Assembly (NCBI RefSeq): GCF_039645985.1 | Contig: NZ_CP147919.1 | Coordinates: 1,736,001 to 1,800,000 of the forward strand | Source: Sulfurimonas sp. HSL3-7 | GTDB lineage: Bacteria > Campylobacterota > Campylobacteria > Campylobacterales > Sulfurimonadaceae | Reading direction: 5' to 3' | DNA length: 64,000 nucleotides | Shown: in pieces, positions 53,377-59,830 of the stretch | Layout of the letters: each line of letters opens with the position of its first letter | How positions within the stretch are numbered: the first letter of the stretch is position 1 | Translations under genes and position numbers: made by a program | Notes under the pieces: model-generated | What the model was told of the DNA's origin: nothing | Database searches by the model: none | What the model saw: only the letters and a program-made list of their open reading frames with translations

Positions 53377-54237
53377 TTACAGCTGCGCCTCTTTTTTCAT
53401 CATCGAGCGGTAGGTGTTGACGATCTCCAGCAGCTCCTGCGTGATCTCTTGCTGGCGAAGGGCATTGAGTTCAAGCCGCATCAGCTGGTCACTCTCTTTG
53501 ATCGCGTTGGCGGCATGGATCATGCTGTTGAGCCGTTCCTGGTTTTCACTGGCAACTGATTCGAGAAATGCCCTGTAACAGGAGGTGTAAAGGTACTCTT
53601 TGATCATGACATTGAGTATCTCATGCCCCTCAAGATACAAGAGGGGCTCTTTTTTTATCGACTTTTTGTGGAACTTTGAAAAATCGGGCGGCAGGACCTT
53701 TTTGTTGACGACATCATAACCCCCCTCATCGTTATGTTTCGCATAGACCAGGTGCAAAATACCCAGATGCTCTTTCGTCACCAGTTCATTGAGGTAGGCG
53801 GAGAGTTCTATTGTATAGGTGTCGATGGCTTCGACATTAGAGGCCCCTTTGAGGTACCGGCTGCAGACGGTCTTGCGTGCTTTGGCCTCCTCGGCGCCCT
53901 TTTCGCCTATGATGACGGTCCTCTGCCCTTCTTTGGGAAGCGTGCTGAAAAAATCAAGGATCCTCTCATTGAAAAAACCGCAAAGCCCCTCTTCGGAGAG
54001 GAAGAGAACATAGATCGTCCTGCCGGGGAGGGTCTCGCCGATCTCCGACAGATTCGGAAAAAGCGTGACAATGTCCCCTACCGAGTCCTCAATGCTCCTT
54101 TGATAGGTACGCAGGTAGGGAAGCTTGTGTATTGCGCTCTGTACATTGAAGTTGGCAAATGCTTTCATCGATGAGACGATCTCTTCGATCTCTTTGATGC
54201 TTTTGAGTTTCTTTGTCAGAGACAGAGAGCTGCTCAT
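53377..54237 (-). CDS. atpG: N-ATPase gamma subunit
   Basis: The gamma subunit is the central rotor shaft. This 286-residue version keeps the N- and C-terminal coiled-coil helices (LKSIKEIEEIVSSMKAFA and LRQQEITQELLEIVNTYRSMM, the latter only partly quoted) around a Rossmann-like middle domain. Similarity to ordinary F1 gamma is limited, as expected for N-ATPases. The ATG at 54237 overlaps the atpA stop by 4 bp (ATGA) and is preferred over a GTG 9 nt upstream. It is the last ATPase gene of the minus-strand half. Confidence 0.88.
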   Translation of the reverse strand: MSSSLSLTKKLKSIKEIEEIVSSMKAFANFNVQSAIHKLPYLRTYQRSIEDSVGDIVTLFPNLSEIGETLPGRTIYVLFLSEEGLCGFFNERILDFFSTLPKEGQRTVIIGEKGAEEAKARKTVCSRYLKGASNVEAIDTYTIELSAYLNELVTKEHLGILHLVYAKHNDEGGYDVVNKKVLPPDFSKFHKKSIKKEPLLYLEGHEILNVMIKEYLYTSCYRAFLESVASENQERLNSMIHAANAIKESDQLMRLELNALRQQEITQELLEIVNTYRSMMKKEAQL

Positions 54238-55748
54238 CGGTGCCACACTTTTAAAAAGTCGTCCGCAGTGGCCCGCAGGCGTTCGATCAACGCCTCATCG
54301 ATCTCTTTTGTCACTTCGATCGCGTTCAGGATCTCCGGCGCCTCTTTTTTAATGTGACGTATGAATTTGTCTATAAAAATATCTATCTCCGTCAGAGGCA
54401 GCTGCTGAAGGTATCCCTCATTGCTCAAAAAGAAGATGACAACCTCTTCAGGCATCGCGATATGTTCGAAACGCTTCTGTTTCAGTGCGACCCGCAGTGC
54501 CCGTCCTCTGTCGATCAGTTTCTGCGTCTGCGGCTCCACCTTGGCACCGAACTTGGTAAAGACCTCCACTTCGAGAAACTGGGAGTAGTCGAGTTTGAGT
54601 TTTGCGGCCATCTTTTTCAGCGCCGGAGGCTGCGCCTTGCTCCCGATACGCGACACCGAGCGGCCGATGTCGATGGCGGGAAGAAACCCTTTGTTGAACA
54701 GCTCTCTCTCCAGGTAGATCTGGCCGTCCGTTATCGATATGAGATTGGTGGGGATATAGTCCGATAGCCTTCCCGCCTGCGTTTCGATGATCGGAAGCGC
54801 GGTGATGGAGCCCCCTTTGAACTTGTCGTCCCTTTTCCCTGCCCGCTCCAGAAGGCGCGAATGGATAAAAAAGATGTCCCCGGGATAGGCTTCGCGTCCG
54901 GGCGGTATTTCGAGAAGCAGCGAGATGCTTCTGTAGGCATCGGCATGTTTGGTGAGATCATCATAGACGATCAGCACATCTTTGCCCTGGTCCCTGAAGT
55001 ATTCGGCGATGGCACATCCGGAATACGGGGCGATGAACTTCATGCCGGCAGATGCATCTGCCGATGCTGCGACCACCACCGTATGCGAAAGGGCACCGCC
55101 CTGTTTCAGATCGTTGATCACCCGGGCGATCTGCGTTTTCCGCTGTCCGACAGAGACATAGACACAGAGAACATCTTTCCCCTTCTGATTGATGATCGTA
55201 TCGACTGCCAGTGCGGTCTTTCCCAGTGAAGAGTCCGAAATAATTAGCTCCCGCTGCCCCTTTCCGATGGGGATCATTGCGTCTATGATCTTGATACCGG
55301 TATAGAGCGGTTCTTTGACAAAGTCTCTTTCCATCAGCGCTACGGCCTGCTGTTCGATCGGATAGTGCTCTTTTGTCGCTATCGGCTGTTGTTCGTCCAG
55401 CATACAGACAAGCGGATCGACCACTTTTCCCAGCAGTTCATACCCGACAGGTATCGAGACGCTCCGGTTGGTGTAGCGGACACGGTCTTTGACGTTGAGC
55501 CGCGTATACTCGCCCAGTACGATGGCCTGAACCGACTCCTGTTTGATGTTGAGTGCCAATGCGAAGAGGTTGTAGGGGAGTTCCAGTAGCTCGAAATAGC
55601 CGACATGGGGAAGCTCTTTAACCTCGATGATGCCGTCACTGATATTGGCGATATACCCCTCTTCCTGCGCACTGAAGAGCTGTCTCTCTTTCTCCGCCGC
55701 ATGATAGAGGGTTTTAAACGTCTCCTCGACAAATTTTTTTCTGTCCAT
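54234..55748 (-). CDS. atpA: N-ATPase alpha subunit
   Basis: The 504-residue protein is the non-catalytic nucleotide-binding subunit of F1. It has the beta-barrel, nucleotide-binding and C-terminal domains, with GKGQRELII just before the P-loop. The P-loop itself reads SDSSLGKT (residues 171-178) where most F1 alpha subunits have GDRQTGKT, so the first Gly is Ser while Gly-Lys-Thr are kept. ISITDGQIYLE and the Arg finger region SVSRIGSKAQ are present. It starts directly after atpF and is coupled to atpG. Confidence 0.94.
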   Translation of the reverse strand: MDRKKFVEETFKTLYHAAEKERQLFSAQEEGYIANISDGIIEVKELPHVGYFELLELPYNLFALALNIKQESVQAIVLGEYTRLNVKDRVRYTNRSVSIPVGYELLGKVVDPLVCMLDEQQPIATKEHYPIEQQAVALMERDFVKEPLYTGIKIIDAMIPIGKGQRELIISDSSLGKTALAVDTIINQKGKDVLCVYVSVGQRKTQIARVINDLKQGGALSHTVVVAASADASAGMKFIAPYSGCAIAEYFRDQGKDVLIVYDDLTKHADAYRSISLLLEIPPGREAYPGDIFFIHSRLLERAGKRDDKFKGGSITALPIIETQAGRLSDYIPTNLISITDGQIYLERELFNKGFLPAIDIGRSVSRIGSKAQPPALKKMAAKLKLDYSQFLEVEVFTKFGAKVEPQTQKLIDRGRALRVALKQKRFEHIAMPEEVVIFFLSNEGYLQQLPLTEIDIFIDKFIRHIKKEAPEILNAIEVTKEIDEALIERLRATADDFLKVWHR

Positions 55749-56498
55749 CTACAACTCGTTCTCCATCTTCTCTTTGAAACGCTCCAGCTCCCCTTTGACG
55801 GAGGCGTCGAAGACCTTGTTCTCAATGACAAGACGAATACCGCATATCAGTGAACTGTCCTGAATACTATACAGTACGACCGTACCGCACTGAAGAAGTT
55901 CTTCGATCGTCTCTTTGATCTTCTGCTTCATATTTTCCTGCGGGAGGAACGGCGTGTAGAGGGTCATCTCGCATGCATTGCCGGCGAGCTCTTCTTTGAG
56001 CAGCAAAATCTCGTCCGCATCGCTTTCAGAGAGGACCTGTAAAAACTGATCGGTACGTTTTTCATGCAGCAGCTCATCGCTGAGCTCCGACAGCAGTTTT
56101 TCACTGTAGTAGAGACTGAACTCCAGGCTTTTCTGCCTGATCTCTTTTTCGGATTTTTTCTCTGCCTCTTCTATGATCCGTTTCTCTTTTTCAAACGCCT
56201 TTTCAATTTCCCTGTTGGTCTCTTTCATCAGTAGATCGGTTTCGATCAGCGCTTTTTTACGCGCTTCGTCGAGCGCTTTTTCCTGCAGGCTCTGGATCTC
56301 TTTCATCTTTTCGCGATAGAGCGCTTCATCCTCCTCCACACGCTGTTCACCCTCTTCGAGTTTCCTGATGCGCTCTGCGATCATCTCTTCTCTTTTTTGG
56401 ATAATACGCTTCAGCGGGTTGAAAAAGAGTCGGTAGAGAATATAGAGGACAATGAAAAAGTTCACGACCTGGAAAAAGAAGGTCCACCAGTCAAACAT
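55749..56498 (-). CDS. atpF: N-ATPase b subunit (elongated, delta-replacing)
   Basis: The 249-residue protein has one N-terminal TM helix (about residues 5-25), a long charged coiled coil (to about residue 145) and an additional ~90-residue C-terminal domain resembling delta/OSCP in pattern. Ordinary b subunits are ~160 residues. N-ATPase operons lack atpH, and an elongated b is thought to take over its stator role; no atpH is present here. It is 7 bp downstream of atpE and adjoins atpA. Confidence 0.9.
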   Translation of the reverse strand: MFDWWTFFFQVVNFFIVLYILYRLFFNPLKRIIQKREEMIAERIRKLEEGEQRVEEDEALYREKMKEIQSLQEKALDEARKKALIETDLLMKETNREIEKAFEKEKRIIEEAEKKSEKEIRQKSLEFSLYYSEKLLSELSDELLHEKRTDQFLQVLSESDADEILLLKEELAGNACEMTLYTPFLPQENMKQKIKETIEELLQCGTVVLYSIQDSSLICGIRLVIENKVFDASVKGELERFKEKMENEL

Positions 56499-59299: not shown

Positions 59300-59579
59300 C
59301 AACGGAGAGAAGAAGAGCTTTGAGGAGCATATCGGCAAAAAAGCGTCGTGGATGCAGAAATGGCGCAAAAAAGGAATATTCTGGGAGACGGTCATCGTCG
59401 TCGGTGCGATAGGATGGATGGTGGCGCTGCCTATGGTCATCGGCGGTTATCTCGGCAACTATCTGGATAAACATACACAGGTGGGTGCCGGCGGTCTCTC
59501 CTGGACCGTTACCTTCATCATATTGGGTCTTTTTGTCGCCATCTACTCTGTCTGGAGAGTTTTTATCTATAAAAAATGA
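59286..59579 (+). CDS. atpQ: N-ATPase accessory membrane protein AtpQ (AtpI-like)
   Basis: The ~97-residue protein has two TM segments (about residues 33-55 and 67-92) with the glycine-rich IGGYLGNYLDKH between them, matching AtpI/AtpZ-type assembly factors. In N-ATPase operons this gene (atpQ or atpI) follows atpC. The frame opens with a GTG at 59286; a TTG at 59292 has a better-spaced GGAG and may be the true start. Its stop overlaps atpR (ATGA). Confidence 0.85.
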   Translation: MKLNNNGEKKSFEEHIGKKASWMQKWRKKGIFWETVIVVGAIGWMVALPMVIGGYLGNYLDKHTQVGAGGLSWTVTFIILGLFVAIYSVWRVFIYKK

Positions 59580-59830
59580 GAGAGCTACTTTTTTTTATAC
59601 TCGGAAATATCATTGCAATCTTCTATTTTTCGCACCTCTATTGGCAGTTGGGCAATCTTGCAGTGAAACGTACAATCTCATTTTATTTTACCTTTGCTAT
59701 ACGCTTTTCTGTTTTATCTCTTCTGCTGGGTGCTCTCTTTTTTGTCTATGGCGCTGTGGCTGTCTACTGCATATTAGGCATATTCACAGGCAGAGCGTTA
59801 ACACTCTATTGGGTCTCGAAGAGAGAGTGA
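59576..59830 (+). CDS. atpR: N-ATPase accessory membrane protein AtpR
   Basis: This 84-residue protein with three hydrophobic segments occupies the atpR position, unique to N-ATPase operons. Polar residues within its helices have led to proposals of a role in ion-ring assembly. It overlaps atpQ by 4 bp and ends the plus-strand half-operon, where in other genomes atpB would follow on the same strand. Confidence 0.85.
   Translation: MRELLFFILGNIIAIFYFSHLYWQLGNLAVKRTISFYFTFAIRFSVLSLLLGALFFVYGAVAVYCILGIFTGRALTLYWVSKRE

Follow-up and report, generated by a model that had tools for sequence, protein, structure and literature searches.

A divergent N-type ATPase locus in Sulfurimonas sp. HSL3-7 and other Campylobacterota

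How is a multi-subunit rotary machine with equimolar alpha and beta made from opposite transcripts that diverge from a small control region, and how did such a gene order arise? The question is raised by a locus in a stretch of 64,000 nucleotides (hereafter, the window) of Sulfurimonas sp. HSL3-7, C1:1736001-1800000 of a single 2.87-Mb contig, which carries the genes of an N-type ATPase (N-ATPase). Dibrova et al. are said to have described the N-ATPase operon in 2010 as atpDCQRBEFAG. Open reading frame (ORF) calls and family searches confirmed what a first-pass annotation of the window had proposed, namely that all nine genes are present at 53377-59830, atpDCQR being encoded on the plus strand and, 80 bp away, atpBEFAG on the minus strand, and that the break in this complete N-ATPase lies exactly between R and B. 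The genes thus form two divergent, tightly packed operons, in which the pairs D/C, C/Q, Q/R, B/E and A/G overlap and the remaining neighbors nearly abut. The divergent layout is real and conserved and apparently undescribed, an old variant and not a one-off, and what is new is how the genes are arranged and controlled rather than the enzyme.

Layout of the locus and identity of the enzyme

Relatives were sought with subunit a (atpB) as the probe, since the a subunits of F-type enzymes give much weaker matches (about 1e-17 to 1e-24). In the family, 4 of 200 genomes had an N-type match, as did 4 of 399 in the order, the genome of the window being counted in each. A draw of 397 genomes from the phylum gave no further N-type matches, and two further contigs from Campylobacterota and five from Nitrospirota came from a scan of 84,980 species genomes. 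The Campylobacterota loci found in this way number nine (the window, L039, L040, L041, L044, L045, L046, L048 and L050; L044 and L048 are short contigs on which the junction is visible), and they come from several genera and families. All nine are divergent at the same joint, so that the layout is not a peculiarity of one genome, and the AtpD proteins of the other loci are 70-86% identical to that of the window. Among Nitrospirota, 48 of 396 genomes had an N-type match, and the loci whose layout was read were all collinear (L053 and L054 included) except for four without D-C-Q upstream. In three of these (G555, G556 and G557), D-C-Q lies on another contig and R-B-E-F-A-G stands alone, and the fourth (G748) groups with them in the tree described below. 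The named plasmid loci, from Sulfuricella, Legionella, Picosynechococcus, Acaryochloris, Methylovirgula, Sphingobium, Alloyangia, Polymorphobacter, Croceicoccus, Sulfitobacter and Azospirillum, were likewise collinear. The comparison of R/B order across phyla that the first-pass annotation had proposed therefore gave a divergent order throughout the Campylobacterota loci and a collinear one in the loci read from Pseudomonadota, Cyanobacteria and those Nitrospirota that have D-C-Q upstream. One Nitrospirota genome (G722) has two N-type atpB genes, on contigs C107 and C33, and possibly two N-ATPases. Among the split Nitrospirota loci (L055, L056, L057 and L116, with L108-L110), L055-L057 have a tRNA-Asp gene on the strand opposite to atpR, ∼150-170 bp upstream of it.

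Published accounts bear out collinear atpDCQRBEFAG as the described order (PMC4154653, PMC8620254, PMC11738941). The window locus resembles described N-ATPases in its subunit set, the b-delta fusion, the lack of a separate delta gene, the presence of atpQ and atpR, the F-ATPase encoded alongside and its clade, but it has two divergent operons in place of one collinear operon and does not fit the ProAD recognition rule, beta-epsilon-X-X-a-c-(b delta)-alpha-gamma (PMC11738941). Since ProAD, which catalogues N-ATPases, begins by filtering on gene order but assigns the final annotation by phylogeny (PMC11738941), the window enzyme stays in the N-ATPase family and its locus is a variant. Because collinear order is used to recognize N-ATPases, annotation that relies on gene order can overlook divergent loci across the phylum or assign them wrongly. 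In split F-ATPases of Chlorobi, Bacteroidetes, Cyanobacteria and Aquificae, beta and epsilon are also apart from the other genes, but these enzymes are F-type and their halves are at non-adjacent sites (PMC4154653), whereas the halves in the window are back to back. A split N-ATPase has been mentioned in Nitrosococcus halophilus, and a search of open-licence papers turned up no account of divergent N-ATPase genes, nor any of an N-ATPase in Campylobacterota.

The proteins themselves have the marks of N-ATPases. AtpF joins subunit b to a C-terminal OSCP domain (PF00213) and the locus is without a separate delta ORF, and AtpQ is present (PF09527). AtpR of the window had no direct Pfam or NCBIfam match at 0.001, and its assignment is indirect, resting on position, size and similarity to AtpR of L040 (44% identity, E 2e-17), which passes the Pfam AtpR model PF12966. 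In a maximum-likelihood tree of alpha+beta+a+c with one F-type outgroup, the window locus groups with N-ATPase loci of the Sulfuricella/Legionella type at 99.8/100. What speaks against the assignment is that the NCBIfam "alternate F1F0 ATPase" models (TIGR03305, 03306, 03321-03324 and 03166), although among the best matches for most subunits, were reached at their cut-offs by none; because all N-type matches are below the cut-offs, the enzyme is taken as a divergent N-ATPase branch outside these narrow models.

A standard F-ATPase is encoded elsewhere in the genome, with b'-b-delta-alpha-gamma-beta-epsilon at ∼C1:1900.8-1906.5 kb and subunit a at C1:1834 kb, matching the split F-ATPase layout reported for epsilonproteobacteria (PMC4154653). 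The first-pass annotation had suggested looking for it, and its presence places the N-ATPase beside another rotary ATPase, as expected for the family. Taken together, the locus probably encodes a genuine and working N-type ATPase that uses ATP to pump cations alongside a normal F-ATPase, with two divergent operons that come from one inversion. The description of the two halves as rotor and stator was mis-assigned, since the c-ring and gamma, which belong to the rotor, are encoded with a, b and alpha, and beta and epsilon are encoded on the opposite side.

The control region between atpB and atpD

The intergenic region measures 66-133 bp across the nine loci, and in the window it holds a candidate -10 followed by a conserved leader of atpD. 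Differences from the window over the 36 nt of -10 plus leader were counted in L039, L040, L041, L044, L046, L048 and L050, with L045 left out. There was 1 difference in L044, 2 in L041 and 4 in L039, so that the leader is nearly unchanged while the third codon positions of atpD are only 54, 45 and 52% identical to the window in L044, L041 and L039, respectively; in the other loci counted, the differences rose to 7 (L048), 10 (L040), 12 (L050) and 14 (L046). A 20-nt core of the leader has a single match in the host genome at up to 3 mismatches. In G370, G015 and G024, the best genomic match is at atpD (0, 1 and 2 mismatches), and in G558 the only match is at atpD. Other hits in relatives have 3 mismatches, a level also seen in controls with reversed patterns, and a genome-wide leader regulon was rejected on these grounds. 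In the window, L041 and L044, the leader is open and in frame and would encode almost identical peptides. As a general case, however, an N-terminal extension of AtpD was also rejected, since stops break the frame in L039 and L048, and the blocks of the window and L041 are identical at third positions too. Inheritance from the sister clade was likewise discarded, as those Nitrospirota atpD genes that were inspected have no such leader in front of them, and an Rfam search with the leader gave no match at E<=1. Because it is unique in the genome, absent at the inspected Nitrospirota atpD genes, without a match in Rfam and non-coding in L039 and L048, the leader is a locus-specific element of the Campylobacterota clade. 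In L050 and L040, the atpD strand carries a leader-like block, GAGTTTTAGAAAAGATTAAAG, further upstream; L050 has it besides the copy adjoining atpD.

We propose that atpDCQR would be transcribed by sigma70-type initiation from the TATAAT at 57511, and that atpBEFAG would be transcribed either from an overlapping -10 on the opposite strand or from a weak promoter close by, so that a single regulatory region would govern both halves. TATAATA reads as TATTAT on the opposite strand, and starts placed seven bases from each -10 are predicted to fall ∼18 bp apart, the commonest start spacing of bidirectional promoters in E. coli (PMC12825309). Those promoters have a symmetric shared -10 and starts ∼18 bp apart (PMC12825309), and the window is predicted to share these features. 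A shared bidirectional promoter for both halves is plausible from the motif, with the odds about even.

Several observations weigh against this proposal. The candidate -10 and atpB are not a constant distance apart (∼32-48 nt in five close loci and 73 in L046), and clear constraint is therefore seen on the atpD side only. The leaders of L045 and L046 have diverged. In addition, a sigma70 scan found promoter-like sites at a level not above shuffled sequences, and the site at 57511 was not listed by it for want of a good -35. The "new divergent promoter" of the first-pass annotation is more aptly seen as a candidate promoter plus leader of atpD, both conserved, with a possible bearing on the transcription of atpB.

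The strongest alternative, to which we give a little less than an even chance, is that each half has its own promoter under its own regulation. The conserved block, whether promoter, operator or leader RNA, would then serve atpDCQR only, and atpBEFAG would have a weak promoter of its own. Of the two flanking distances, just the one to atpD is constant (39-44 nt), whereas the atpB side differs between loci in both length and sequence; the leader lies wholly on the atpD side, and the additional leader-like blocks of L050 and L040 are upstream on that strand as well. However, the start codons are just 66-83 bp apart in five of the closest loci, leaving scant room for a second promoter, and the seventh base of TATAATA, which the opposite -10 requires and TATAAT does not, is retained in eight of the nine loci. 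A more specific version of shared control, in which after the inversion a single symmetric -10 and a dedicated, locus-specific leader came to give joint control of both halves, polymerase competition sets the beta:alpha ratio, and the whole divergent cassette later passed from one Campylobacterota family to another, is offered tentatively and is rather less likely than not.

Origin of the divergent order

In the same tree, the nine Campylobacterota loci form one clade (100/100), which is sister at 99.9/100 to a Nitrospirota clade holding both collinear and split loci, and the other N-ATPases in the tree are collinear; nearer relatives than this Nitrospirota clade may exist in phyla outside the sample. 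The Nitrospirota enzymes resemble that of the window in being its sister clade, in a near-identical c-ring ion-site motif and, in L054, in CPA2 and CBS genes after atpG. They differ in being collinear or broken at Q/R with D-C-Q elsewhere, and in the leader, which was not seen at the atpD genes inspected. We infer a single inversion in place, in which the D-C-Q-R block would have been inverted once in the ancestor of the Campylobacterota N-ATPases. The inverted block would be DCQR, because its inversion gives the heads-together arrangement B<>D, whereas inversion of BEFAG would give R and G tails together (R><G). The inversion relative to the collinear order that the first-pass annotation had proposed is supported by the collinear outgroups examined and by this fit.

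An origin by relocation, with a split like DCQ / RBEFAG followed by head-to-head re-joining, is rather improbable. Breakage is not rare in the wider clade, since D-C-Q and R-B-E-F-A-G occupy separate sites in sister Nitrospirota, but R stays with Q in Campylobacterota and with B in split Nitrospirota, so the breaks differ, and a single inversion is simpler. Following the proposed inversion, the cassette may have travelled: the tree interleaves loci of different Campylobacterota families (L044 and L048 versus the window and L039), and G370, of family f6, sits inside a clade with f1 genomes (supports 90-97), a pattern that points to transfer of the divergent cassette between lineages of Campylobacterota.

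Even less probable, and in our judgement very much so, is a degenerating or non-functional duplicate, which the patchy occurrence of the N-ATPase in the family and order samples might suggest; all nine reading frames of the window are intact, and the c subunit is 83-97% identical across genera with its ion-site glutamates retained. An assembly artefact at the R/B junction, which the first-pass annotation had raised as a possible refutation, has a negligible chance and is ruled out by the single-contig genome and the identical junction in nine genomes.

Antiporter genes and the pumped ion

The order atpG-antiporter-CBS (Table 1) is common to the window, L039 and the collinear Nitrospirota locus L054, and the antiporter of the window is 72% identical to that of L039 and 34% to that of L054. 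The atpBEFAG unit continues beyond atpG into the genes for the CPA2 antiporter and the CBS protein, which would allow a joint part in cation and pH homeostasis. Antiporters are linked to some N-ATPase loci, and from these gene neighborhoods we infer that ATP-driven cation pumping plus antiport would serve ion and pH homeostasis; the CPA2/CBS linkage itself points to a role in cation or pH homeostasis. Counting against a general role, the antiporter was not found within 5 kb of the divergent loci L045 and L046.

Table 1. Features of the N-ATPase locus and adjoining genes, in window coordinates
Feature	Position	Strand	Basis or remark
CBS-domain protein	51588-52070	-	PF00571; 3 bp after antiporter
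CPA2-type cation/proton antiporter	52074-53327	-	PF00999; 49 bp after atpG
atpG, gamma	53377-54246	-	ORF and family matches
atpA, alpha	54234-55748	-	ORF and family matches
atpF, b with C-terminal OSCP/delta-like domain, 249 amino acids	55749-56498	-	Pfam PF00430 and PF00213
atpE, subunit c	56506-56772	-	Family matches; E30, E63, S64, V65, Y68
atpB, subunit a	56765-57472	-	Pfam PF00119 and N-type a models
Divergent intergenic region, 80 bp	57473-57552	atpB/atpD gap	Sequence; aligned in nine loci
TATAAT, candidate -10 for atpDCQR	57511-57516	+	Exact in 7/9 loci, 39-44 nt before atpD ATG
TATTAT, overlapping candidate -10 for atpBEFAG (weak evidence)	57512-57517	-	5/6 to consensus
atpD leader AGACTATCTAAGTTTCAAGAAAGATTAAAG, ∼30 nt	57517-57546	+	Conserved among closest loci
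atpD, N-type F1 beta	57553-58914	+	ORF and family matches
atpC, epsilon	58898-59299	+	Pfam PF02823; N-type epsilon NCBIfam models among top matches, below cut-off
atpQ, AtpZ/AtpI-like small membrane protein	59286-59579	+	Pfam PF09527
atpR	59576-59830	+	Via L040 AtpR (44% identity), which passes PF12966

Predicted sodium-translocating c subunits have Q/E32, E65, S/T66, a polar residue at 67 and Y70 in I. tartaricus numbering (PMC2359735). The c subunit of the window keeps E30, E63, S64 and Y68, and V65 replaces the polar residue (position 67) in all nine Campylobacterota loci.

Beyond atpR, a gene for a CAAX-type protease (PF02517) follows after 60 bp on the plus strand (59891-60517), and near other divergent loci it has no convincing counterpart. 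Further antiporter genes were seen at other N-ATPase loci. In L039, an NhaA-type Na+/H+ antiporter directly follows atpR on the same strand (L039:5047-6384), in L040 a further PF00999 antiporter gene converges on atpR, and an N-ATPase operon on an Acaryochloris plasmid has a cation:proton antiporter gene inserted between atpQ and atpR (L151:3743-4972).

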